Part shown: positions 28,244-46,989 of the stretch, piece after piece
How the letters are laid out: each line of letters begins with the position of its first letter
Position numbering within the stretch: position 1 is the first letter of the stretch
Virus record (IMG/VR): IMGVR_UViG_3300020470_000026
Coordinates: 1-47,169 of that record
Direction: 5' to 3' (one strand)
DNA length: 47,169 nt
From: a virus
The notes under the pieces: generated by a model
Told to the model about the DNA's origin: nothing
The model's input: only the letters and a program-made list of their open reading frames with translations
The model's database searches: none
Made by a program: the position numbers and the translations under genes

Positions 28244-28251
28244 TATTTAGA
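28244..28251 (-). promoter_or_regulatory. Late-promoter-like TCTAAATA overlapping the giant gene stop
   Basis: Minus-strand TCTAAATA contains the TAA stop (28247-28249) of the 4476-residue gene. It lies 24 bases before the tail-fibre start. Confidence 0.5.
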
Positions 28252-31200
28252 TAATGTAATTAACAGACTTCAAGTGATTTGTCCGTTGTACTACAGGCCA
28301 TGTAGATATTCCACTGATACCATTATCTGGATAAGTGTCATATACAGAATTCTCAGACCTTCCTGTTAAGGTAATTTTACCCCAACTAAAGTTACCGAAG
28401 AAGTTAGATGCAGTCATAACTCCAACAAATCCACTTCCTGCACCTTCACCATTATTATCGAAGGTGAAATTATTAGAATCAAATGTAAGATTAGAACTTC
28501 CAAAAGTAACAGTTGAAAGACCACTTATATTTGCATAAACTCTTCGTACCCAAGTATTTCCTACACCTACAACATCTCTTTGCTGTATAGTAGAAGCACT
28601 TACCTGATAAATGTTATCAATAAATTGTGTTCCAACACCAATAACCTCATTAGCAATAGATTTGGAAGTTATAGATGTAGTAGCAGAACCTGCATTTGAA
28701 GCAGATACCATAAAGTAATCTCCAACATCCAAAGAACTTACTGTTACTGCAGTTCCAACTAATTTTGTCTTTCTAAGGTCTGAATATGTTGGAATATAAA
28801 GATCGAAAATCATCTTATCAATGTAACTTGATGTTGTAGTTCCAAATCCAACAACAACACCATAATCTCCAATATATGAATCTACAGTATTAACTTCTGA
28901 GACCAATGTAGGAGGTTGAATCAAGACTTGTGCACTATCAACATACCCAGTTCCAGCGAAGGAAACAACCACTCCTGTAACTGTTCCTGCAGCAGACACT
29001 GTAGCAGTGGCAGTAGCAGTAGAACCATAACCAACAGGATTAGATACAACTACACTTGGAGCAGAAGTATATCCACTTCCACCATCAAGTATATCGATAG
29101 AAGTAATTGCACCACCCGTAGAAACAATACATGTTGCAGAAGCACCTACCTTAGAATCTTGAGATGTTAAAGTAATCTTATTCTGGAAGGTTAAATTTGA
29201 ATCACTTTCATTCTGAGAATCAAAGATTGGTCTTACATTATCAACAAATATTTGAGTTGATGAAACCCCAACTGACTTAATAACGAAAGCAGCAGGATTA
29301 ATACGTGGTTCATACAGTGACCTATCCTTACCAAGGGGTTTTCCGTTAAGAATCATATCCTCAGTTTGTCTTGTCCAAACAACTGGTCTTTCTAAATTAG
29401 GATCTCCTGTGATACCTGGTCCATAATATGGCATAGTATCTACAGTATTTGTAGATTTAATCTTAGTAACTGTTCTATCTTCTTCTTGTAAATATGAAGG
29501 AATTGGGTCGTATGCACTTGGAGTTAAGATATCACCAGGTTTAACTGATTCGACAACATCTCTAAATTTAACATCTTGTTCACCACTACCCTTATAGAAA
29601 ACTATCTTACATGTATCTCCTGCTTTAGGAGCTTCAGTAAATGTAAGAATACTTCCTCCATCAAACTTATATCCTTTACCAGGAACTTGAAGAACATCAT
29701 TAACAAATACAAGAAGAGTATCTTGAATACTGATAGGAGAACCCTTACTTGCTCTAATAGAAACGGGAACACCTGAGTCTTCTAATGGGAATGTTAATCT
29801 ATTTCCATCAAATAGATATGAAACGTCATCTAATGACTGTAACATACCCACAGACCATCCAGTAAATTCATCAGTAAATACATTCTCAATATTAACTTGG
29901 AATTCTCTATATCCAGAAGTTGTAGGTATTCCAGTTGTTCCACCAATTGGTAAAGTTAAGATTTGTCCATTACCATAACCATATCCAGTATTCTTAATAG
30001 TAAAGTCTATAACACTTGAACCTTGACCAACTGTAACATCAATCGTTGCATTTGAACCAATTCCAGAAGAAACTGAACTGTATTCTAAAGGAATATCAGC
30101 ATATCCAATAGGAGAATCTACAACAACTTTCATTGGAATACTTACAGTTCCACCTCTTGCATAGAAGTGTCTTCTTGTAGAAATTCCACTATTAATAATG
30201 AAAGAATATTCGTCAACTACCTGTAGAACATCTGTTTGAGATGCTACAGGATCATCTGCTCTTGGTGCAATAATAACTCCTTGAACAGTTCCACCAGACT
30301 TATAGAATGTTGGTACTGTAGAAACACCTACATTTACATCGAATTTAGTAGGACTATTAACACCAATAATTTTTACTCCATTATATCCAGGATCTCCACC
30401 TCTTGGATACTTATGCACAGTTGCATAACTGTCCTTAGAACACTTAAATCCTAATGACTCTTTCTTTAATTTAATACTACTTCCTGATGTTAAACTATGA
30501 CTTCCAATTATAAGTTCTAATTCACCACTTCCAGCATTATAATTGGCATCAGTTACATTGTAATTTACTATAGGAGATGAACCAACATTGATAGTAAATG
30601 TATCAGCACTTACTGCAGTAACAGCAGTAGCAATACCTGCAATAGGATCTGTTGTGCGAGGGTATGAATGATTAGTGCTATGGGAATCCATATCACAAGT
30701 AAATGTAATTCCATCAGTAGCAACAGACACTGTATTACTTGTACTCAATCCATGTGCTGTACTGGTTATTACCAATTCACCATTTACAGGATTATATACA
30801 GCATTAGATGGAGTAAATGCAGTTGTCCATCCAGTAACAGTAACAGCATTTGGTGATGAACCCACAAACTGATGTCCATAATTACCACCAGTAATTACTG
30901 CTCCAGAAGTTGCACTATCAAATTGATGAGTGTACTGATCACTTAATCCAGCAGCTGTTACATTTACAGTTATGGATGTAGAACTTGTACCTGTAATAGA
31001 AATAGCAGTATCATATACTCTATCTCTATTTCTTGGATAGTAATGGTCTGAAGCACCATTATCTAAACCACAAGTCATTGCCAATCCAGTTAATATAACA
31101 TCTTTACCAACACTGAAACCATGTGCACTGGATGTAGTAACCGTCATGGTTCCATTAGCATTATTATAAGAAACAGTGCTAATATCCTTTGCAGGTGAAT

Positions 31201-34200
31201 ATGTACATGTAAAGGCAATACCAGATACAACCACATCACTACCAACATTTAAATTATGAGGAGTAGCAGTTGTAATTTTTGTTATTCCAGTTATTGAGTT
31301 ATATCCTACATTCTGTATATCTCTTGGTTTGTAAATTACAGCTGTGTTAGTAACAGCAATTCCTGTGACATGTCCTCCTTCTACTATTGCAGTTCCAATA
31401 CCTATAATAGAAGTTGCATTTAAATCTTGAGTTTGAATTCCAACATTAGCAATTTGAGAACCAGACCTATAACCAGAACCACTATTACCAATGGAAACTG
31501 ATGAAATTGTTCCACCCGTAGATACTACCGCAGTACCTCCTGCAGCAACTAATGGTTGATATCCAAAACCTTCTGTTGAACCAACAGAAACTATAACTCC
31601 ACCAACAGGAAGATTTGAAGTATTAACATCAGAAGCAATTGAAGATGCCGTTCCTGTGAATGAAATTGTTGTTATACCAGTAGAACCTGATTCTTCTAAC
31701 TCATAATCACTGCCTCTTCCTGGTCCTTGGAACACATCATTGATTAGAATGATAGCATTATCATTTTCAATTCCAGTTACTGTAGAACCAGCAGAAGTTA
31801 AAGTAAAATCTCTTTCAGTTCCAGTAAATCCTGCTGAAATATCATCAAAAATATAATTACGTGCATATGTTTCAGTTGCAGTATTAGGAATACCAGAACG
31901 CATAAAGGTTCTTCCTTGGAAATGAGATCCTGTAGATATTCCTGTCCAATCTCTATCATCTGGAGGATTAGTAGTACTTCCTATTGGAACATTTCCATAA
32001 GGTGCTTCAACAAAGTTTAGAGTATTTTCTACAATGTTGTAATTACCAATAACCTTAGTTACAACATCACCAGTACCATATCCAGCAAGAGATGTTCCTA
32101 ACCATGATCTACGAACTCTTATTGCATTTGTATTACCAATACCAATTCCTTCAATCTTCATTATCTCATTACCAACCTTAATTAAATCTCCACCAAAGAA
32201 TGATGTAATTCCAGCAAACTCAATAATGTCACTTGTAGTAAAGACTTCATCTGCCAAATGAGTTGTTACTGCAGTAGAAACAACAGGTGATTGAATAATA
32301 TTGTCTAAAGTTACAAGAACTTTAGAATTTGCATTCTTAGAAACAAATCTATGAGATGTACCAATACCTACATTTGTAAAATCAACAGTATTAACAATTC
32401 CCATTAATGCCTTTTGAGCAGTCTCTGCAACTTTTATCTTATCTTCACTAACTTTAACTGCAAAAACAGTAGATGGTAATTTATCAGTTGTACCAACTCC
32501 TACAAATCCATCAGTAGATGCAATACCAAGTGCTTGACTTGAACCAGCACCAGCATGGATATATTGTATTTCTTCACCAGTAACAAAGAAATGATTTGCT
32601 ATCTGAATGGTATCATTTGTTAAACTAACTACATCAGTGCTACTTCCATCAAAACTCCTTTCAAAAATTGGGTTTGTTGCATGTTTTAATTCAAATGATC
32701 TCTTAATGTCTCTTTCTGTACCAAAATATTCATTAAATTCAGTTTGAATAGTTGCATTATTTAAAGACACAATATCTCTTGTATCATCTTGCTCTCTTAG
32801 AGCATTCATAAAGACATTTACATGTGCATCAATATTAGGCAATGGTGTGAATACTAATTCAACTACTGCATCATTACCCACTCCAGCCCCTGTTATACGG
32901 GTTCCTATTGTGCCTAATCCAGCAACTGTCTCTATTATGCCATATTCTGCATTATAAGTGTCTCCAGTGCCGTAAGCACTATCATAATCATCAACAACAA
33001 TTACTTCAGATATTTGATAATTGTCATTAGTTGTGTCTGATATTTGAACAACAAAATATGCTGCGTCATAGTCATTGATATAACTTCCGATCACATTTTC
33101 AGTTGGAGAACCAGAAGCACTAATACTTGTACTTCTACCTTCAAGTTTGGCATGTTTCATATCAAACGTACCAATTCCAGTAGAAGTCTCACTACTTATT
33201 GCTACCTGAATTGTATTGACTATAGAAGTAGTTCCAACACCAGCAGTGCTATTATGTGGATGGAAATCAATCTTCACTAAAGATCCATCAATATAACCAG
33301 AATATGTTCCAAATCCAGGTATAGGATTAGTTGAACCAGGACTTGTAATTAACTGTGGATATTCAACTATATCTACTGTAGTTCCATCATGAATAACATT
33401 AAGTTCATCAAATTCAAATTCTCCACCTGCATCAATCTTAGTACTATCAGCAGTAAGAGATACTAATACTTTTGCTGCACGATATGTACTTGCAAGACTC
33501 ACAATTGTTGTAGGAGTATTTGCAGGTATTTCTACACTACTTGTTTTAACTTCCGCAGCAGCACCAAATACACTACTACCAATAGATAAAAGATTATCAT
33601 TTATATTGTATGAAAGACATGTAATATCAAAATCATTTACCTGATACTTAGTAGGATAGAATAATAATTGACCTTGTGTACCACTGATATTAAAGTCAAA
33701 AGAACCTAAATCATAAACATTCTCAACTCTACCATATTGATTCAAATAACCAATATAATTATCATGAACAAGATCGACAATCATTAATTGTCTTGTACCA
33801 TAGAATCTTCTATCTTTTACATAAGTAATATACTTTTGAGACCTAACATCTGCTAAATCGAAAGAAGTAACAACACTGAATGTTGCTGTCCTTGGATTAC
33901 TATTGAACTGACTACTAATATCATCAACAGTAAGAACTCTATTACCAATTGATTCATAATAATCGGTAAGAACTCTTGCACCAGATAAAGTTAGTTCAGT
34001 AGAAACTAATTTAGAATTAATATGGAAATTATTTTCTGTAGCAATCTCAAAATCCTGTACAGTATTTAAATTTCCATATCCTATAACATCAATTAATCTA
34101 ACAACAACATCCTGAACAGGTGCGACTCCCATTTCAGATTCTGAAGCATTAGATTGCTTATCTTCAGCACTACCAACCAATCCATATTCACCAACATTAG

Positions 34201-37200
34201 ATGATTCTGCTTGCAAATCACCAAATTTTTTAAATCCTAAAGTATGGTTTAAAGAACCAACAACATCTTCCCATGTAGAATAAGGAACTGTTGTTTTTAG
34301 AGAATATGCAAATCTTTGATAGTAAAGATTATCCTGAACTCTTTGAATATTATCATTAAGAATTCCAGAATCACTCTGCCATCCATTTTTAACTATAGAG
34401 TAGTAATTTAAATCAAGAGAAGAATCATAAGTTGTTACAGAAGAAGCAATTCCTTGACTATCAGAAGAAGATCCTTTAATAACTTCTCCAACTACAAAAT
34501 CATCATCTCCAGTAACATTAAGTACTCCATTAATAGAATTCCATGACTGAACAATACCAGTTGCTGATGGAGAAGTAACAGTTTCTCCAACATAGTATTC
34601 TTTAGACTTTAATTTAACATTAAAACTTGGGAAATCTTTCTCAGGAATAATTCTACCAGCAGAATTGAAAACATCAATATTACCAGGAGTATCTGAACCA
34701 GAGAAATGCTCAGACATGTTATATCTAACCGTTGCGATACCACCAGGATTCTGAGCAACTCCTAATATAGTGAATAATTGATAATTATAACTTTCTGAAT
34801 TATATCCCTTTCCAGTAGAATTTAAACCAACATTTACACCCTCAATCATTACCTTATCGCCGTAAGCAAATGGGAATGAAACATTTGTACCAAATCCAAC
34901 CTCTAAACTAACTGTTACATCTTGAGTTGCTGTATTGAAATTGATAGTACTAATACCAACACCATTACTATTCTTTACAGGAAGTATTTTAGGAGGAGCA
35001 TTATTAACACCATCAGTATTAGATAATATTGTTACTGATTGTGATTTTAAGTCATAAGATAAATCTAAACCTGCTATTTGCTTTCCTGTTTTACCATCAA
35101 ATGCAATTAGACTTGGTGCACCAGCATATCCATTTCCAACAGATGTAACTCCGATATGATCGATTGCCTGAAGAGTATCAATTCTTAAAACTTGAGGTAA
35201 ACTTAAAGATGGTCTTAAAGTTTTATCTGATGGGAAATCAAATCCAATATTATTCAAGGTAACATCTTTAATATTTCCGATACTTGAACTAAATGGTTCT
35301 ATAATTGCATTTTTACCAAATTCGGTACTAACTGTAGAAATTCCAGGTAAATCGTAATAATTAGTACCACTTTGAATAATTTCAACTTCTGATATTGGAC
35401 CAACAGCAGTTTTAGAATTAGTAGTATAATTAAGTCGAGAAGTTGATGAAATATAAGAAGACCTCTCTGGATCAACTGCTATAGTAAATGTAAATGAATT
35501 AGTTGAACCAATTCCAACAGTAACTTGTTGTGAACCATCATATAAACTATCCTTTGTTTCTACTTGATTATTAGGAGCAACTTCTTTGTCAACTACTATT
35601 CCTTCTTTAGAAGCAGGAATATCAGACTCAAAAATTGGATTAAACTTATAATATAAAACAGAAGGAGTATTATTATCTGCTGTTAACGTTACTTTAGCAT
35701 TAGTTGATATACCAGATTTTCCTACTGAATTGACTGAAAATGTAGAAGCGTTTTCACTCTTCTCCCACTTAGTAGTCATATTTTCATCAGTATAGAAATC
35801 TAATGTAAATGCAGAATACTGTGCAGTTAATTTAAAGTATGAAAGTGAATCATCAGTTAAATCAAATTCAACTGTAGAATTTTTATAGGCAGAAATTGCT
35901 GGATTAATTGGAGATATTGTACCCGAAGCAGCACTAGTAATGTCTATAACATATGGTTTCCATAAGGTGGAGTGATAATGTGTATCAGATAATCTAATAG
36001 TATTATCATCAATTACAACAACATAATACATTCCATTATCTAATAAACCAGTCGAAGGTGTTGCTGCGGTATGAATAACCTTCTGTCCAGTAAAATATCC
36101 ATGATCTACTATTGTTATTGAATTAGTAGTAATATCAACATCACCAGTAGCAAAATCTCTTGGGTTGATTACAATACGTCTATTGTAATCATTATATTTT
36201 ACGATATATGTAGATGCTATAGAAGGATTTACATCAATTTTTACAATATCACCACTGGTTAATCCATGAGTCTCTCCTGTAGAAACTGTTACAAGATTTC
36301 TCTTAACATTTCCTGTTATAGGTTCGTAATTAGTCTTAAAGCTATGATACACACCTGTTCCAATTCCACTAAAGAATAATGTAGAAGAATCTTTATATTC
36401 TTGGTCAATACCAACAAAATTGCCTGTAGTACCTAATCCAACAACTACTGTTGATACCCCAACTAAATCAGGAGTAATTTTAGCAGCATATAATGTTTGA
36501 CCAGATGTTAATGAAACTATAGGAGAAGATTCATTATATCTTACTGAAATCCCAGTACCAGTATTAGTAAAATATGTTAATTTATCACCAGTATCTAATT
36601 TATGATTTGGAAGATATATTGCTCTTGAAGGAACAAAAAGATCTGTTATACCTGCTCCAGGATTAGAGAAAGTAATAGTGGTTCCTGCACCAGTTCCTAC
36701 AGAAACAGACTCTAATGGATTAAAATATATCTCTGTATTAAGTTTAGCACTATCAACTGTATTAAATCCTACATTAATAGTAAATCTTCTTTGAAGATCA
36801 AAAAGAGTTGTAGTTACAGTATGTGCAGAACCTGCTGTACCATCTTGTCCTCTTAAAAATCTAATTCTTCTCTTTGTAGGTTCTATATTAAGAACTTTTA
36901 ATCTTTCATTACCAATTTTGTAAATATCATTCGGTCTTGAAACTATATTTCCTTCGATAGAGAAATAAGTAACAATACCAGTTGCTGCTATATCACCAAT
37001 TCCCGTCGATTCTGTAGTAAACCCACTTAAGGAATAATTATTAGTAGTAATTCCTATATTATAAGAACCTTCGAGTTGGGTGGATGTTGTAGATAATCCA
37101 GAAACTATAATAAGATCATCTAAATCAAAATTATGAGGATTTGCTGCAATAACCTCATATGTATTATCAGAATAAGGATATAATTCAACATCATTAATAA

Positions 37201-40200
37201 TACTTGATCCTAAACTTATAGACTTTAATTCTGCACCTTCAAGAACAGATATTTTCGCATTTGCACCATTTCCTTGAGTAGATGAATTCTTAAATATTAC
37301 TCTTTCACCAACTTTGTAATAATTACCACCTGTAGTCACACCAACCCTATCAATCCCACCAGGTGTTACAGAACTAACATCAGCAGTCTGAGAAAGGTTG
37401 TTTGGAATTGCAAGATACTGATAATTAAGAGTTCCGTCAATTAAATTATATGGAGCAGTATTTCTTAACCAATTTGAATTGTTTATATCAATTGTGGTCT
37501 GATTAGAACCAATATCAAAGTTAAAATCGATTGGTTTAGCATTAAATTTATCTCCAATCAAATAAGGGAATACAGGACTCTTATATCCTTCAAAAGGACC
37601 ATCAGAATCTATTAAAAACGGTCCTTGGTTGATTGTTGTAAAATATGCATAAGTTCCATTAGGATAATCAGGAGTAATACAATATCTTCCATTGTTTTCA
37701 TCCAATGTCATTTCATCATTAACATTAGTATAAACATAATCCTCAATAAAGAATCCCTCTGGGAATATATTAAGAGGTGGTCTATCGGAAGCTAATTGAA
37801 TCTTATATCCCGACTTTAATTGACCTATAGATCCTCCAGTTTTGGATGTATATCCATAAGGACCATAAATTGGGTTTCCATCATATGCCCAACCAAGAAT
37901 AGGAGAATGGTAAATTGATTTTGCCTCTTCTCCATTAATAATCTTTAAATCTGGTTGTCCGTATAAAACTTTTCCATCAGAATCTATAGAATATGACTGT
38001 TCTCTTAATTTTCTTGGTGCATATAAATGAGAATATTGAAGTCCAGAATTAACGTCTCTTGGAATAGTAATAAATCCATCATCAGCAGTAAATGTATGCT
38101 GATTTTTCTTAACTAAGTTTACTCTCCAACTTTGAACATTAGATTTAAATGCAGCTCCTCTTCCTGGAGTAACTATAGATGCAGTTGTATTGTTCTGGTT
38201 ATATCCAGAACCTGTATCCATAACTCTAACTTCAGTTATTGAACCATTAGTAATAATAGGAACAAGATTGCATCCAGTACCAGCACCATATATTAAAATA
38301 TCAGGAGAAGAAGTATATCCAGCTCCTCCATAATTAACAAGGACTTCAACTATCTTGCCATCAGACACAATAGGAGTTATTTGTGCATGTACTACAGTTG
38401 AAAGTTCTACTAAAGGTTGTCTATCAAAATTAACAATTTCTGATGAACCATAACCTACACCATTGTCCGTTAAATTTAAAGATGTAACCTCTCCTCTAAA
38501 AATAGGGTCAATACTAATAGGATATTTTCTTCCTTGAATTAATTCTGCATCATCACTTATATTAACTTCAATTGGAGGGTAATTGAATAAATGAGTTCCA
38601 ATACCTGCCGTTGTCAAATCAATATATTGCTTTCTATCGTAATTAATTAATGGTCTGATACCACCTAATGCAGAAAGTTTAAATTTATTATCATCAACCT
38701 TCTTTACAACATATGAATTGCCATCATTTAAACCACCAATAGCAGTTCCTTGTGCATTGTAAACTATAGTATCTCCAGATTGATAATTGTGATTATGAAT
38801 ATTAATTTCATTAGTTGCGGTATTAATTCCAACTGGAAGAGTTGCTGTTTTATTATTTTTATAACCAAAACCGCTATTATCAATAGTAAATGAGTCTACA
38901 ACTAATCTTTTATTATATGATCTAATGTATTGTGTTCCACGACCATAATCGGTTAAAGTAATAGTATTAATACCTGCTCTTGCATCAGAGTATTTGTTAT
39001 ATAATGCAATTTTAGTAGAATTCTTTAAACCAGCATAATAAACAGTATTAGTGCTTAGCCCACCAATTGCTTGTTCGCCATTAGTAATGTAAATTACCTT
39101 CTCACCATTATGTAACATATGATGAGTAGCAAAACCAATTGTTGAATTTGTTGCACCTAATCCAACATACTCTTTATTATCAAAAACTTGAGCAACAAAT
39201 GGAACTTCATGAATGGCATTCTTCATTACAGGATATGCCAATGCTCCACTACCTCCACCACCAGTAATAGTTACTTTTGGTGCTCTTTCGTAAGTAGAAC
39301 CACGGTCAGTTATTCTAATTTCCTTTAAAGTACCAGAAACCCCCAAATATCCAGTAGCACCTATACCAACTTGGTCTATAATTTTTATATTTGGTGGATT
39401 TATGATGTCATAATCCAATCCTGATGCTAAAACTTCGACATCATTAATTTTTCCATAATTAAGAACATCTTCTGACTTATAATTTAAAATTTCAACACCA
39501 TTTTTTAAAATACCCGTAAATCCAGGTTTAGTTGGAACTTTCTCCCCATCATTTAAAGGAGGATTAATTTCTCTCCATAATTTTTGACTTTGTAAAGTCT
39601 TTTTCCTAAACTTATAAGGTTCAAGTACTTGATTGGTTACAGTAGTCGGTGCAACACTAACAAATCTGTTATTATAGATGTCTGATTGACTTACAGCAAA
39701 TTGAACATTTCTATTATCAAGTCTTTTAATAAAATATAGACCTTCAGCAGGAAGTAATAGATTTACTGAAGTACTAATTCCAGCAACACCAGTAATTGGA
39801 CTAATTGTGGATGTAGATACTATCTCTGGAGTGTAATATACCTCATCACCAGTATAGAATCCATGATCATCAATAATTGTACCATTAGAAAGACTGGTAA
39901 TATTAAAAGTATCTCCACTAAATGCACCTTGGAAAGAAATAGACCTATCAGACGCATTAAGAGGTTGTGAATCGTATGATGGTATAGATGGAGAAGCAAT
40001 TAAAGTCTTATCACCATCCTTGTAAACGTTTTGTACGTTAGTGGTGAATTCTGAGATGTTAGGGAAAGGATTTGAAGAACCTCTTGATAGAGTTCTCTTA
40101 ATATTGTAAGTTTGCTCTGGAGGAAGTACTCCTTGACCCTGAATACTAAAAGATTTTGAAGAAATAACATCAACAATTTTAGTTGTAGTAGATTCTGCCT

Positions 40201-41677
40201 GTTGAACACCTGAAGTAATAACCTGAGCAGAATCACCACTATTAAAATAATGTTCAGTGTCTACAGTAATCTTATAAGTGTAATTTGAACTATCAATTAA
40301 CTCTAATGTTCTAATCTTATATGTTGGTGCACTATTATAAATCCAATTTCTATATTTAAATGTAGTATCATTTACTCCAAGAGTTTTAATAGTAGCAGTT
40401 TCATTTTTAGAATGACCTGAAGTATTAGAAGGGAAAGAAGCATTTTCTAATACGGAAGCAATTCTAACTTTAATTTCTGACCCATCTTTAAAAGATTTTC
40501 CATATGCATAGGTATTAATTCCGACAATAGTACCGTCTAAAATATCTCCTGCAATATTTGAACATCCATAGAATTGGTTTATAGATGTTGAAGTATATGA
40601 AACAACACCTACAGTGTTATCTTCATAAGTTACGTATATTTCACCACTATCTGGAAAACTTATAGTTGAATCTACATCAATAACAGTAGTTCCTGGAGTT
40701 ACTCTTCCTATAGTTTTTGATTTAGCATGAACTGCAAAATCACCATAAATCGCACCATCAACTCTTAAGTCTCTATTGTATCCAGAGTCAACACTAAGTC
40801 TATAAAAAGTCTTTCCTGCTCCAACTGGAATTTGCTCTACAGAAGTAATAGGAGCATATCCTTTAGGTATATCTGCGTATGCGTCTTGATACAGTGTTGC
40901 CTCTGTAAGGTGTGTAGGATCGCCTGTAACGCCTTCTACAACAATATCCTTAGTTAATCTATACTCAGCATTAGAAGGGGTAAATAGGCGGTCTTTTGGC
41001 TTTATGACTTCAACGTCTTCGTCATAAAGTGCCTTAAATAAAATTTCAAAAGACCTGTCAGTACCCTTACTTAAGTAAAAATCCTTTGCTTGTTTAATAA
41101 AAACGTTTTGATTAAGTTCTGAATTTAATTCTCTTCCTTCAAATCCTGGTAATAATTGGAATTTTGTTTTTACTAAAAATTCTTTAAGAAATAAAGTACT
41201 TAAATTGGTTATAGTATCGCCTTCAGTGTGAATTGAAGCAGCAGAAGTACTAAAAACTAATTGATCTGGAGTTAAACTACTCTTATAATCAGTTGTTCCA
41301 ACAAATCCTCTAATACATCCCTCAAAAGAGGTAGCAGTTTTGGAAGTATATGTTATTATTTCGTCACCAATCTTAATTAAACCGTAACTATCAGGAAATC
41401 CGTTAGTACCAACCTCAGATTTAATCATATCGACTTCAATTGAGGTGTTTTCTACCCCAATAGTCTTCTCAAGAACAACACTTTCAGTTAAATTTGTAAT
41501 ATCATCAACCTTTACATACTGATCTATGTTCTGTATTAGGTCAATAGGTCCCGACTGATATTCTTGAGCAAGATAATATTGCTTTAAGAACTCAGATATT
41601 AAAGGAAAATCTGTCCTAACATATGCAGGAAGCTGATTTTGGACAATATTACTAAATTGAACTCTTTTTTCTGTCAT
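28247..41677 (-). CDS. Giant baseplate-region structural protein (4476 aa) with YHYH domain
   Basis: One uninterrupted 13.4-kb frame directly after gp6, where T4 has gp7 (1032 residues). The N-terminus (FSNIVQNQLPAYVRTDFPLI, residues 8-27) and ISEFLKQYYLAQEYQSGPID are of the type found after gp6 in marine T4-like phages, some of which are named VrlC. Residues about 1250-1350 hold a YHYH domain (LGWAYDGNPIYGPYGY; NGRYCITPDYPNGTYAYF). Short modules recur along it: 'GGxGYTxxP' (near 800, 1110-1160, 3380, 4195), 'VGExVxGxxS..G' (near 2365) and four 'HGF.VG...C....YPR' units (about 3470-3810). The YHYH region is not known to me as catalytic. It probably forms a large part of the baseplate wedge or fibre network. 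Ribosome-binding site weak. Confidence 0.88.
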   Translation of the reverse strand: MTEKRVQFSNIVQNQLPAYVRTDFPLISEFLKQYYLAQEYQSGPIDLIQNIDQYVKVDDITNLTESVVLEKTIGVENTSIEVDMIKSEVGTNGFPDSYGLIKIGDEIITYTSKTATSFEGCIRGFVGTTDYKSSLTPDQLVFSTSAASIHTEGDTITNLSTLFLKEFLVKTKFQLLPGFEGRELNSELNQNVFIKQAKDFYLSKGTDRSFEILFKALYDEDVEVIKPKDRLFTPSNAEYRLTKDIVVEGVTGDPTHLTEATLYQDAYADIPKGYAPITSVEQIPVGAGKTFYRLSVDSGYNRDLRVDGAIYGDFAVHAKSKTIGRVTPGTTVIDVDSTISFPDSGEIYVTYEDNTVGVVSYTSTSINQFYGCSNIAGDILDGTIVGINTYAYGKSFKDGSEIKVRIASVLENASFPSNTSGHSKNETATIKTLGVNDTTFKYRNWIYNSAPTYKIRTLELIDSSNYTYKITVDTEHYFNSGDSAQVITSGVQQAESTTTKIVDVISSKSFSIQGQGVLPPEQTYNIKRTLSRGSSNPFPNISEFTTNVQNVYKDGDKTLIASPSIPSYDSQPLNASDRSISFQGAFSGDTFNITSLSNGTIIDDHGFYTGDEVYYTPEIVSTSTISPITGVAGISTSVNLLLPAEGLYFIKRLDNRNVQFAVSQSDIYNNRFVSVAPTTVTNQVLEPYKFRKKTLQSQKLWREINPPLNDGEKVPTKPGFTGILKNGVEILNYKSEDVLNYGKINDVEVLASGLDYDIINPPNIKIIDQVGIGATGYLGVSGTLKEIRITDRGSTYERAPKVTITGGGGSGALAYPVMKNAIHEVPFVAQVFDNKEYVGLGATNSTIGFATHHMLHNGEKVIYITNGEQAIGGLSTNTVYYAGLKNSTKIALYNKYSDARAGINTITLTDYGRGTQYIRSYNKRLVVDSFTIDNSGFGYKNNKTATLPVGINTATNEINIHNHNYQSGDTIVYNAQGTAIGGLNDGNSYVVKKVDDNKFKLSALGGIRPLINYDRKQYIDLTTAGIGTHLFNYPPIEVNISDDAELIQGRKYPISIDPIFRGEVTSLNLTDNGVGYGSSEIVNFDRQPLVELSTVVHAQITPIVSDGKIVEVLVNYGGAGYTSSPDILIYGAGTGCNLVPIITNGSITEVRVMDTGSGYNQNNTTASIVTPGRGAAFKSNVQSWRVNLVKKNQHTFTADDGFITIPRDVNSGLQYSHLYAPRKLREQSYSIDSDGKVLYGQPDLKIINGEEAKSIYHSPILGWAYDGNPIYGPYGYTSKTGGSIGQLKSGYKIQLASDRPPLNIFPEGFFIEDYVYTNVNDEMTLDENNGRYCITPDYPNGTYAYFTTINQGPFLIDSDGPFEGYKSPVFPYLIGDKFNAKPIDFNFDIGSNQTTIDINNSNWLRNTAPYNLIDGTLNYQYLAIPNNLSQTADVSSVTPGGIDRVGVTTGGNYYKVGERVIFKNSSTQGNGANAKISVLEGAELKSISLGSSIINDVELYPYSDNTYEVIAANPHNFDLDDLIIVSGLSTTSTQLEGSYNIGITTNNYSLSGFTTESTGIGDIAATGIVTYFSIEGNIVSRPNDIYKIGNERLKVLNIEPTKRRIRFLRGQDGTAGSAHTVTTTLFDLQRRFTINVGFNTVDSAKLNTEIYFNPLESVSVGTGAGTTITFSNPGAGITDLFVPSRAIYLPNHKLDTGDKLTYFTNTGTGISVRYNESSPIVSLTSGQTLYAAKITPDLVGVSTVVVGLGTTGNFVGIDQEYKDSSTLFFSGIGTGVYHSFKTNYEPITGNVKRNLVTVSTGETHGLTSGDIVKIDVNPSIASTYIVKYNDYNRRIVINPRDFATGDVDITTNSITIVDHGYFTGQKVIHTAATPSTGLLDNGMYYVVVIDDNTIRLSDTHYHSTLWKPYVIDITSAASGTISPINPAISAYKNSTVEFDLTDDSLSYFKLTAQYSAFTLDFYTDENMTTKWEKSENASTFSVNSVGKSGISTNAKVTLTADNNTPSVLYYKFNPIFESDIPASKEGIVVDKEVAPNNQVETKDSLYDGSQQVTVGIGSTNSFTFTIAVDPERSSYISSTSRLNYTTNSKTAVGPISEVEIIQSGTNYYDLPGISTVSTEFGKNAIIEPFSSSIGNIKDVTLNNIGFDFPSDKTLRPSLSLPQVLRIDTLQAIDHIGVTSVGNGYAGAPSLIAFDGKTGKQIAGLDLSYDLKSQSVTILSNTDGVNNAPPKILPVKNSNGVGISTINFNTATQDVTVSLEVGFGTNVSFPFAYGDKVMIEGVNVGLNSTGKGYNSESYNYQLFTILGVAQNPGGIATVRYNMSEHFSGSDTPGNIDVFNSAGRIIPEKDFPSFNVKLKSKEYYVGETVTSPSATGIVQSWNSINGVLNVTGDDDFVVGEVIKGSSSDSQGIASSVTTYDSSLDLNYYSIVKNGWQSDSGILNDNIQRVQDNLYYQRFAYSLKTTVPYSTWEDVVGSLNHTLGFKKFGDLQAESSNVGEYGLVGSAEDKQSNASESEMGVAPVQDVVVRLIDVIGYGNLNTVQDFEIATENNFHINSKLVSTELTLSGARVLTDYYESIGNRVLTVDDISSQFNSNPRTATFSVVTSFDLADVRSQKYITYVKDRRFYGTRQLMIVDLVHDNYIGYLNQYGRVENVYDLGSFDFNISGTQGQLLFYPTKYQVNDFDITCLSYNINDNLLSIGSSVFGAAAEVKTSSVEIPANTPTTIVSLASTYRAAKVLVSLTADSTKIDAGGEFEFDELNVIHDGTTVDIVEYPQLITSPGSTNPIPGFGTYSGYIDGSLVKIDFHPHNSTAGVGTTSIVNTIQVAISSETSTGIGTFDMKHAKLEGRSTSISASGSPTENVIGSYINDYDAAYFVVQISDTTNDNYQISEVIVVDDYDSAYGTGDTYNAEYGIIETVAGLGTIGTRITGAGVGNDAVVELVFTPLPNIDAHVNVFMNALREQDDTRDIVSLNNATIQTEFNEYFGTERDIKRSFELKHATNPIFERSFDGSSTDVVSLTNDTIQIANHFFVTGEEIQYIHAGAGSSQALGIASTDGFVGVGTTDKLPSTVFAVKVSEDKIKVAETAQKALMGIVNTVDFTNVGIGTSHRFVSKNANSKVLVTLDNIIQSPVVSTAVTTHLADEVFTTSDIIEFAGITSFFGGDLIKVGNEIMKIEGIGIGNTNAIRVRRSWLGTSLAGYGTGDVVTKVIGNYNIVENTLNFVEAPYGNVPIGSTTNPPDDRDWTGISTGSHFQGRTFMRSGIPNTATETYARNYIFDDISAGFTGTERDFTLTSAGSTVTGIENDNAIILINDVFQGPGRGSDYELEESGSTGITTISFTGTASSIASDVNTSNLPVGGVIVSVGSTEGFGYQPLVAAGGTAVVSTGGTISSVSIGNSGSGYRSGSQIANVGIQTQDLNATSIIGIGTAIVEGGHVTGIAVTNTAVIYKPRDIQNVGYNSITGITKITTATPHNLNVGSDVVVSGIAFTCTYSPAKDISTVSYNNANGTMTVTTSSAHGFSVGKDVILTGLAMTCGLDNGASDHYYPRNRDRVYDTAISITGTSSTSITVNVTAAGLSDQYTHQFDSATSGAVITGGNYGHQFVGSSPNAVTVTGWTTAFTPSNAVYNPVNGELVITSTAHGLSTSNTVSVATDGITFTCDMDSHSTNHSYPRTTDPIAGIATAVTAVSADTFTINVGSSPIVNYNVTDANYNAGSGELELIIGSHSLTSGSSIKLKKESLGFKCSKDSYATVHKYPRGGDPGYNGVKIIGVNSPTKFDVNVGVSTVPTFYKSGGTVQGVIIAPRADDPVASQTDVLQVVDEYSFIINSGISTRRHFYARGGTVSIPMKVVVDSPIGYADIPLEYSSVSSGIGSNATIDVTVGQGSSVIDFTIKNTGYGYGNGQILTLPIGGTTGIPTTSGYREFQVNIENVFTDEFTGWSVGMLQSLDDVSYLFDGNRLTFPLEDSGVPVSIRASKGSPISIQDTLLVFVNDVLQVPGKGYKFDGGSILTFTEAPKAGDTCKIVFYKGSGEQDVKFRDVVESVKPGDILTPSAYDPIPSYLQEEDRTVTKIKSTNTVDTMPYYGPGITGDPNLERPVVWTRQTEDMILNGKPLGKDRSLYEPRINPAAFVIKSVGVSSTQIFVDNVRPIFDSQNESDSNLTFQNKITLTSQDSKVGASATCIVSTGGAITSIDILDGGSGYTSAPSVVVSNPVGYGSTATATATVSAAGTVTGVVVSFAGTGYVDSAQVLIQPPTLVSEVNTVDSYIGDYGVVVGFGTTTSSYIDKMIFDLYIPTYSDLRKTKLVGTAVTVSSLDVGDYFMVSASNAGSATTSITSKSIANEVIGVGTQFIDNIYQVSASTIQQRDVVGVGNTWVRRVYANISGLSTVTFGSSNLTFDSNNFTFDNNGEGAGSGFVGVMTASNFFGNFSWGKITLTGRSENSVYDTYPDNGISGISTWPVVQRTNHLKSVNYII

Positions 41678-43676: not shown

Positions 43677-44078
43677 TTACCTTGTTGGTACTAAAACAAA
43701 TTGTAATTCTTGCGGAGGAACATTTGCTCCTACAATAATGTAAGTAATAATGACATCAAAAGCATTTGTCTCAAAATTAGGGAATACTTGTACTTTTTGT
43801 AACTCTACCCTTGGTTCATAGTTTATAATTGCTTGTTCTATTTCATCTTTTATTGCAGTTGCACTAATATCATCCACATTTTCAAACAGAGATGCCGATA
43901 TTTGTGAACCAAAGTTTTCATTAAAGAACTTTTCACCAGGAAGGGTAAAAACAATGTTTCTAAGTGCCCTTGCAATTGCATTTTCATTCTTAAGTCCAAT
44001 TAGGTCACCATTAAGTGGATTAGCCTGAAAAGTCATGCTAACGTCCTTAAAACCTTGACTTACCCTCTGTAAAGGCAT
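43677..44078 (-). CDS. 25: Baseplate wedge protein gp25
   Basis: A 133-residue protein (T4 gp25 is 132), member of the gp25/GPW family found in all contractile injection systems. Visible family features are GLKNENAIARALRNIVFTLP, the glycine-rich PGEKFFNENFGSQIS (48-62) and YEPRVELQKVQVFP near residue 90. It sits at the centre of the baseplate, where sheath and wedge meet, and nucleates sheath assembly. It is the first of the long series of baseplate genes; a GATAAATA late promoter lies 23 bases upstream. Confidence 0.94.
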   Translation of the reverse strand: MPLQRVSQGFKDVSMTFQANPLNGDLIGLKNENAIARALRNIVFTLPGEKFFNENFGSQISASLFENVDDISATAIKDEIEQAIINYEPRVELQKVQVFPNFETNAFDVIITYIIVGANVPPQELQFVLVPTR

Positions 44079-44463: not shown

Positions 44464-44664
44464 TTAACAACCCTCCGAGTCGTGTGTGTTTTCTTCTATC
44501 AAATCGAGTTTCGCCGTGATAGATGCCTCTGTAGCACGGATGCGGTATCGAACCGAGTCACGCTCGGATAGTTCTGTAAGAATCGCCGCACTTAAGTCCC
44601 ATAGTTCATCTGAACTCTTACTGGATAGGTGATGGTCTATCCACTCCTGAATAGCATTTTCCAT
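44464..44664 (-). CDS. Small helical protein downstream of the glycosyltransferase
   Basis: A 66-residue protein starting at ATG 44664, which overlaps the glycosyltransferase stop by one base (TAATG). A longer frame from 44712 is less likely because it would read 49 bases inside the upstream gene. The sequence is helical and acidic: ENAIQEWIDHHLSSKSSDEL, ILTELSERDSVRYRIRATEA, KLDLIEENTHDSEGC. No family recognised. Coupling to the glycosyltransferase suggests the two are made together. Confidence 0.75.
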   Translation of the reverse strand: MENAIQEWIDHHLSSKSSDELWDLSAAILTELSERDSVRYRIRATEASITAKLDLIEENTHDSEGC

Positions 44665-45431
44665 TAGATTATACGAGTTTTTTCGTGCCCTACACGAATA
44701 CGAGGATCGCACCAGATTTCGTATCCTTTCTCCTTAGCATCCAGACAGAATGATACGTCTTCACCACACATGTCTTGTACACTACCAGACTCAAAGACTT
44801 GCATCTTAGGAGCAAACCAAGGGTATTCAAGATTCTCAAAGACTCCCTTTTTAATGAGCACCCATCCAAAACCTGTGTAATCTACAGTGAAAGGTTTCTT
44901 ACGCTTGCTGATACCATCCACCATTTCGTGGTTCATCACTCCACCATTAGTACGGAAATCATCTTCCTCTAACCAGTGTGCGACAGATGTAGTTTTGCCA
45001 TCCTCTGTAGCATACCAACCTGCTGTAATCTCTTTCTCATCACCTTCAGCAGGAACTGCAAGGTCACATAACTGCCAGAACTTGTTTGTGTCAAAGACAA
45101 TATCCGAGTCAATCCAAAGTTGGTAATCATACTGTAATTTACCGTCCCAAGGAATTTGCTTAGGTCCACGTAAAACATTTGCTCCAAGACACTTACATCT
45201 TGCAAAGTTTACCATAGAAGAGTAATCCTGAGATATCTGAATACTCATTCCATTCTGTACCATGTCAAAACATAACTGTACAAAATTCTTTAAAAAGATA
45301 TATGAACAACCTCTACCTGGTAAGCAAAACACTATGGTCTTACCTTTCATTCTTTCCTTAATCGCAGCAATGTCCCACTCTTCTTTTTTCTTTGCGGGAG
45401 CATTGGCTTTAACAGTAAATCCTTTTGCCAT
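44664..45431 (-). CDS. GT-A type glycosyltransferase (Anp1-like)
   Basis: A 255-residue protein with a metal-binding DxD motif in LWIDSDIVFD (Asp108, Asp110), preceded by the 'ARCKCLGANVLRG' helix. The C-terminal part has DYTGFGWVLIKKGVFENL, a CGEDVSFCLDAKEKGYEIW acidic site (Glu224/Asp225) and His249 (RVGHEK), as expected for GT-A enzymes. The overall pattern resembles Anp1/GT62-type transferases often annotated in cyanophages. It may glycosylate virion proteins or alter host surface sugars; the substrate is unknown. A consensus sigma-70 promoter lies 23-51 bases upstream, so it is probably an early or middle gene. Confidence 0.82.
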   Translation of the reverse strand: MAKGFTVKANAPAKKKEEWDIAAIKERMKGKTIVFCLPGRGCSYIFLKNFVQLCFDMVQNGMSIQISQDYSSMVNFARCKCLGANVLRGPKQIPWDGKLQYDYQLWIDSDIVFDTNKFWQLCDLAVPAEGDEKEITAGWYATEDGKTTSVAHWLEEDDFRTNGGVMNHEMVDGISKRKKPFTVDYTGFGWVLIKKGVFENLEYPWFAPKMQVFESGSVQDMCGEDVSFCLDAKEKGYEIWCDPRIRVGHEKTRII

Positions 45432-46239: not shown

Positions 46240-46413
46240 TTACCAACTGACAGGATTACTCATGTCTTCGATATAACAATTAACCTCCTCATTGTCTTGC
46301 ATATTTAATACTTTATGCCAGTCAATTTGATGAGGATTATAATCACTTAGTGCATCAATTTCCAGTGTTATTCTATACTTACTCTTTGCCGCTTGACTGT
46401 AAAGAACTGACAT
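46240..46413 (-). CDS. Small protein, unknown (57 aa)
   Basis: ATG 46413 begins a 57-residue frame: MSVLYSQAAKSKYRITLEID, ALSDYNPHQIDWHKVLNMQD, NEEVNCYIEDMSNPVSW. A GAGGAT ribosome-binding site lies about 10 bases upstream and a TTGACA-18-TAGAAT promoter lies 30 bases upstream, so both transcription and translation signals fit. The protein is acidic with hydrophobic alternation, and no domain is recognised. The look is typical of early host-takeover-type small proteins in cyanophages, but no function can be assigned. Confidence 0.75.
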   Translation of the reverse strand: MSVLYSQAAKSKYRITLEIDALSDYNPHQIDWHKVLNMQDNEEVNCYIEDMSNPVSW

Positions 46414-46442: not shown

Positions 46443-46472
46443 ATTCTATCATATACTGGGAGTTACTGTCAA
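46443..46472 (-). promoter_or_regulatory. Sigma-70 type promoter before the 57-residue gene
   Basis: Minus-strand TTGACA (46467-46472), 18-base spacer, TAGAAT (46443-46448), 30 bases before ATG 46413. Confidence 0.78.
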
Positions 46473-46551
46473 CAATTATGGGGTATATTAGAACCCTATT
46501 GTTGTGAATAACTCATAACCCTACAAAATGTTAACGAGGGTCTTGTAATTA

Positions 46552-46581
46552 AAGCGAGTTAGTGTTATACTACGCTCGCTT
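46552..46581. repeat. Inverted repeat / hairpin in the candidate origin
   Basis: AAGCGAG (46552-46558) pairs with CTCGCTT (46575-46581), and inside it TAGT pairs with ACTA around a GTTAT loop, giving 11 bp with a small 1x2 internal loop. No T run follows on either strand, so it is not an ordinary terminator. Confidence 0.6.
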
Positions 46582-46638
46582 AGATGACGACTCTGAGTAA
46601 CATTTAAGAGACCTAATTCCACAACATAACTAACAAAT

Positions 46639-46746
46639 TGTGGAAAACTTGTGGAAAACAGGGTTATATTTATTTAACCATTTTTCACTCTTAATTAACA
46701 CTTTTAAGCATAGTTTTCCACAGAAAGTGTTATAAACTGTGGAAAA
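46639..46746. other. Cluster of four cyanobacterial-type DnaA boxes
   Basis: Exact TTTTCCACA occurs at 46714-46722 (plus), and its complement TGTGGAAAA at 46639-46647, 46650-46658 and 46738-46746. The first two are 11 bases apart, about one helical turn. A roughly 55-base A+T-rich spacer separates the left pair from the rest. TTTTCCACA is the DnaA box reported for cyanobacterial chromosome origins. Confidence 0.7.
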
Positions 46747-46755
46747 CTCCATGTC

Positions 46756-46989
46756 TTATGTGTTATTATAGTAGATACGATTAACCTCATTAATGTTTAA
46801 GTATTCAGGGTCATGTATGTCCTCTTCAGTGTTATCATCTACTACAAATTCTTCTACAAAGTATTCACAACTGATGTCACTAAGTTTTTCACATGCCCTT
46901 AATAATTCGCCTATTTGTTCATTACTAAGGTCTAATTCGTCAATACAAAATGCAATATCATTCTGTAATTTGGTTGATGTTGTTGTCAT
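46756..46989 (-). CDS. Small acidic protein, unknown (77 aa)
   Basis: A 77-residue acidic protein: QNDIAFCIDELDLSNEQIGE, LLRACEKLSDISCEYFVEEF, then an Asp/Glu-rich tail ending NINEVNRIYYNNT. The helical N-terminal half could be a small interaction domain. Its stop adjoins the candidate origin. It overlaps the upstream 51-residue frame by 32 bases. No clear ribosome-binding site was seen before ATG 46989. No family recognised. Confidence 0.68.
   Translation of the reverse strand: MTTTSTKLQNDIAFCIDELDLSNEQIGELLRACEKLSDISCEYFVEEFVVDDNTEEDIHDPEYLNINEVNRIYYNNT

Follow-up and report, generated by a model that had tools for sequence, protein, structure and literature searches.

The window, that is, the whole stretch of 47,169 bases analyzed here (IMG/VR record IMGVR_UViG_3300020470_000026), is a fragment of a T4-like cyanophage (Kyanoviridae). 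Its minus strand carries genes for the portal, tail tube, tail sheath, terminase and baseplate, gene 25 included, and a glycosyltransferase-like gene in the window is also known from T4-like cyanophages. The position of gene 7 (baseplate wedge initiator) is occupied by an ORF of 4,476 amino acids (28247–41677), and related cyanophages possess similarly giant genes at this place. Close to the right end of the window, 5' of gene 25 and amid small genes without assigned function, lies an array of 9-mers which match the cyanobacterial DnaA box (Table 1). An earlier note, made from the sequence alone, had placed these in non-coding DNA. The array does sit in a 342-nt gap separating small ORFs at 46240–46413 and 46756–46989, but mechanically called ORFs of 28–40 amino acids overlap the boxes.

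Table 1. Features of the array and its surroundings (positions in the window)
Feature	Position	Strand	Remarks
Baseplate wedge gene 25	43677..44078	-	phrog_261; syntenic landmark
Glycosyltransferase-like gene	44664..45431	-	phrog_1574; anchor for relatives
Forward sigma-70-like promoter, TTGACA-N18-TAGAAT	46443..46472	-	11 of 12; toward gene 25
Reverse sigma-70-like promoter, TTGTAA-N17-TATACT	46543..46571	+	in the conserved block; toward the boxes, away from gene 25
Conserved non-coding block of ~60 nt beside the boxes	46546..46609	-	profile E=4.7e-12; alignment of relatives
Variant box AATTCCACA	46615..46623	+	TATTCCACA in L121; second convergent pair with the 46639 box
Exact DnaA box TTTTCCACA	46639..46647	-	same in relative L121
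Exact DnaA box	46650..46658	-	11 nt (one helical turn) from the 46639 box; spacing same in L121
A+T-rich core between the box groups	46659..46713	.	candidate unwinding region (putative role); segments conserved in relatives
AATAAATA	46667..46674	-	fits the cyanophage late-promoter motif NATAAATA (PMC2984593)
Exact DnaA box, left of convergent pair	46714..46722	+	invariant in alignment of relatives
Exact DnaA box, right of convergent pair	46738..46746	-	gap 15; invariant in alignment of relatives

The four exact copies of TTTTCCACA/TGTGGAAAA at 46639–46746 are the only ones in the window. Their grouping within 108 bases, which the earlier note had pointed out, is confirmed and was reproduced in 0 of 1,500 Markov-1 simulations; two or more boxes within 130 nt arose in four of 1,500. 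The direct copies at 46639 and 46650 are indeed one helical turn apart, and the spacer is A+T-rich as claimed (74.5% versus 65.7% for the window). Copies with one mismatch show no overall enrichment in the whole window (15 found versus 22 expected). When the variant box at 46615 is included the array becomes a tandem repeat (99 nt) of a convergent pair; several host-type 9-mer boxes, four exact and one variant, are what one would expect of a DnaA-box array.

The same four boxes with identical spacing occur in L121, a single-cell marine virus contig, where 36/36 box columns are identical to those of the window, versus 191/297 positions (about 64%) outside the boxes. In an alignment of seven sequences (the window and six relatives) three boxes are invariant, one of the direct copies and both members of the convergent pair, and A+T-rich segments between the boxes are conserved. 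Exact clusters were found in nine of 20 complete Kyanoviridae cyanophage genomes (S-SM2, S-RIM8, QB2, Syn9, S-PM2, P-SSM7, S-RIM2, ACG-2014d and S-SZBM1), exclusively at the uvsW-like helicase/gene 25 locus. Of 39 glycosyltransferase-anchored relatives whose upstream sequence extends for 1.8 kb or more, 14 have a cluster. The remaining 11 complete cyanophage genomes have no exact cluster, and among the 22 complete phage records it is likewise absent from T4 and a Pelagibacter phage. There are 2–8 exact boxes per genome, and copies outside the clusters are few and unclustered. Counting the box elsewhere and comparing relatives were both proposed in the earlier note as checks, and in both respects its case is upheld.

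A search without positional constraint, spanning gaps of 12–18, located the pair TTTTCCACA-N14/15-TGTGGAAAA in at least 120 viral DNA stretches; the total for a reversed control motif was 21. Among the matches listed there were 80 contigs, 63 of them cyanophage-like. Markers could be mapped in 58 of the listed cyanophage contigs, and all 58 have the pair in a single interval, from the UvsW-like helicase to gene 25; this count may be biased in that proteins from the same region were used to call contigs cyanophage-like. The whole-genome cluster counts are free of this bias and agree with the contig result. Where the markers are visible in the listed matches, the pair is 2.1–8.6 kb upstream of gene 25 and 4.3–8.9 kb downstream of the helicase; in those contigs showing neither, it adjoins a small gene of the Kyano_Gp96 family. 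As a further check on bias, ORFs from five whole cyanophage genomes were compared with the 17 other contigs and with those lacking markers. Among the matches listed, these 17 are mostly GC-rich and have nil or weak similarity to the five genomes. A 186-nt query comprising the S-RIM2 boxes and the adjoining block matched 220 phage records, all cyanophages, and in the matches listed the stretch either has no annotation or is covered by a hypothetical protein.

A coding explanation for this conservation was rejected: small annotated ORFs do enclose the boxes in Syn9, S-RIM2 and P-SSM7, but the frame in which the boxes are read differs, and those of S-RIM8 lie between genes. A tRNA explanation was likewise dismissed for S-PM2, in which annotated tRNAs overlap the boxes, yet ARAGORN detects none there; these GenBank tRNA coordinates (AJ630128, L144:17414–19333) look wrong.

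Several viruses outside this group carry related arrangements. The GC-rich phages L178, L179, L184, L195, L201, L209 and L210 share an inverted box pair with a gap of 18 and common flanks, which is perhaps a parallel DnaA element; in L195 the pair lies near a distant Kyano_Gp96 relative. Two non-T4 viral contigs (L159:3902–3934 and L202:11919–11951) have three boxes TTTTCCACAggccTGTGGAAAAacTGTGGAAAA. L159 encodes an S-CBS4-like ribonucleotide reductase and so probably belongs to a different family of cyanophages.

The assignment of the boxes to DnaA, made in the earlier note on the strength of the cyanobacterial consensus, has strong support. TTTTCCACA is the DnaA box published for cyanobacteria (PMC4674748), and both it and TATTCCACA occur in a dnaN-side origin of Prochlorococcus. 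The variants enriched near exact boxes (TTaTCCACA, TaTTCCACA, aTTTCCACA and TTcTCCACA) include no substitution in the last two bases, a pattern of tolerance which is DnaA-like. Same-strand boxes are spaced at 11, 12, 20–22, 31–33, 42, 52–53 and 64 nt, in helical register as in a DnaA-box array (R=0.89 by the Rayleigh measure at 10.5 bp, the p-values being indicative only, since the loci are related and independence was assumed). Convergent boxes cluster at 23–25 nt. Eight other 9-mers treated in the same manner yielded one close pair in all. A phage-encoded DnaA was ruled out, no DnaA DNA-binding domain being found in any of the 22 phages, and each of the eight host genomes (8/8) encodes one DnaA. 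We therefore predict, from the motif, its variants and its phasing, that host DnaA very probably binds the array.

Not all of the host data are as simple. In one marine Synechococcus exact TTTTCCACA is absent from the thrC–dnaN region (oriC; L374:1120–1500), where weaker box-like sites are present, and this counts against a simple DnaA story. Host dnaN-side origins have few exact boxes. Marine picocyanobacterial genomes also carry further intergenic TTTTCCACA groups away from dnaN (L382:2560–2579 in G021 and L383:1474–1773 in G019), and one such group is an 11-nt direct repeat like that of the phage. One might argue that the boxes are bound by some other host or phage protein with a DnaA-like motif, as DnaA binding is a prediction and the locus is surrounded by many phage genes without assigned function. 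With the motif, the tolerated variants, the helical phasing and the host origin all fitting DnaA, we regard this as quite improbable.

The earlier note had also described a hairpin. The 46714/46738 pair does form a perfect 12-bp inverted repeat (46712–46723/46737–46748), the one point in favor of an RNA or DNA hairpin or a terminator at this place. Neither a covarying stem nor a GC stem followed by a T run was found, however. The flanking positions of 58 thinned pairs lack stem covariation, the first outer stem position being complementary in 52% versus 56% when shuffled, and boxes without a partner show the A-G-box-R flank preference to the same degree. Moreover, the direct phased arrays contain no inversion, Rfam gave no match, and no terminator-like site was seen. 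A separate AAGCGAG..CTCGCTT repeat, which starts at 46552, varies among relatives: some have it inverted, while in others it is direct or missing. The hairpin is thus not supported as a structural element; we reject it, together with structured RNA, and consider such a role for the inverted pair extremely improbable.

The conserved block came to light through word enrichment near the clusters, and lies just downstream of the boxes in the gene direction. The word ATAAATA is likewise enriched near the clusters in this direction (19 versus 4.2 expected). The block profile finds one copy apiece in six whole genomes and none in S-SZBM1 or P-HM1; the block is also found in phages without boxes, for example SynMITS9220M01 and Bellamy. 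The boxes are therefore not universally required, since 11 of 20 genomes have no exact cluster and some of these keep the block, and they constitute an optional module of the locus. A reverse promoter-like sequence scoring at least 10 of 12 is present in 23/56 blocks, versus 2.2% of background windows, and is stronger in some relatives (e.g. TTGACA-N18-TATACT) than in the window. In the other direction, 54 of 73 clusters have a near-consensus promoter on the downstream side of the boxes, no more than 350 nt away, which is perfect in 21 of the 54, against a background for perfect sites near zero. Early cyanomyovirus genes are thought to be transcribed by the unmodified host polymerase (PMC2984593). 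A search for a gene served by the reverse promoter ended in rejection, as past this promoter there is no reverse-strand protein family conserved in more than six loci.

These divergent promoters raise the possibility that DnaA acts here as a transcription regulator and that no replication begins at the locus. Bound DnaA might block the reverse promoter, or activate or repress the forward, early one, and so tie early phage transcription to the replication state of the host. DnaA does regulate promoters in bacteria (PMC7198777), two conserved promoters adjoin the boxes, the block and promoters persist in phages lacking the boxes, and a late-promoter motif lies within the core. The geometry is less accommodating: the boxes are downstream of the reverse promoter and often 100–280 nt upstream of the forward one, which is unusual for an activator. 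Because no reverse-strand family is conserved past six loci, regulation of the reverse promoter would also have no obvious target. On balance we think a purely regulatory role rather unlikely.

In textbooks, the T4-like phages exemplify replication begun from transcripts and by recombination, with the phage's own proteins. T4 oriF, whose annotation places it between uvsW and gene 25, has a MotA middle promoter, and T4 is not known to employ DnaA. Like oriF, the cyanophage array is found between the gene for a UvsW-type helicase and gene 25, the position expected of a T4-type R-loop origin. In oriF a promoter reads into an A+T-rich unwinding element (PMC3016281); at the cyanophage locus an enriched promoter-like sequence is directed into a candidate region of this kind, the A+T excess near the box pair being modest (4–5 points). 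The resemblance has its bounds. The cyanophage helicase shares PHROG 16 with T4 UvsW and direct similarity is weak and distant; uvsY, unlike in T4, is located elsewhere; and the cyanophage interval is filled, again unlike that of T4, by several kb of small genes. The T4 uvsW–25 stretch contains no TTATCCACA and one lone TTTTCCACA, where the cyanophages have a DnaA array. T4 oriE offers a second parallel, repeated short sites at a candidate origin: its iterons are 12-nt repeats without known role, conserved at syntenic places of related phages (PMC3016281). The iteron sequence is different, and it is the cyanophage boxes which match the box of host DnaA. With the dnaN side of cyanobacterial oriC the phage locus shares TTTTCCACA and its variants, several boxes lying beside A+T-rich DNA. 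It differs in having no adjacent dnaA or dnaN, in the fixed geometry of its box pairs, and in belonging to a phage with its own replisome.

DnaA-box clusters outside oriC also occur at titration sites of the datA type, and the earlier note had offered both recruitment and titration of host DnaA. As a decoy the array would titrate host DnaA as phage copies rise, thereby halting new rounds of host chromosome replication. The boxes are exact and dense, host dnaN-side origins being poor in them, and the phages encode no DnaA domain of their own, all of which such a role would accommodate. Yet 2–8 exact boxes per genome would be too few early in infection, and the locus is, unlike datA, a fixed place with a conserved promoter block and few boxes in a lytic phage. 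Since a sponge needs no single position, no fixed pair gap and no neighboring promoters, the titration half of the proposal loses ground and a pure decoy is improbable.

The best explanation for the array, to which we give about an even chance, is an origin-like control locus which recruits host DnaA. Host DnaA would occupy the helically phased boxes and form a nucleoprotein complex over the A+T-rich core, while the promoter of the adjoining block, read by host RNA polymerase (sigma-70), would transcribe into the box and core region. Opening of the core, aided by DnaA and by transcription, would then provide an early-infection entry point for the phage replication proteins. Both the firing of the promoter and the start of replication at this locus are inferred. 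That the locus functions as a replication origin, as the earlier note suggested, is plausible and evenly poised: its position and the adjoining promoters favor this, but the cumulative GC skew lacks at this place the switch which a single bidirectional theta origin might be expected to produce, and this check, also proposed in the note, is negative. Skew is a weak test here because replication is driven by recombination and transcription runs one way.

More generally, we would tentatively suggest, at somewhat less than even confidence, that a widespread group of T4-like phages with their own replisome start or license replication at one fixed locus through DnaA acting on an origin of the T4-oriF type, with promoter and unwinding region, and that some lineages which lost or never had the DnaA module retain the promoter block. 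The open-access literature yielded no earlier description of the array and nothing relevant on DnaA in cyanophages; subscription journals may contain one. The origins of these phages have yet to be mapped, a review citing just one prediction, for Syn9 (PMC2984593), and the locus provides one candidate. Some relatives naturally carry the boxes and others do not, so that comparisons are ready to hand. That marine cyanomyoviruses conserve such an array at a single place suggests a coupling of part of the T4-like family to the replication control of its host.
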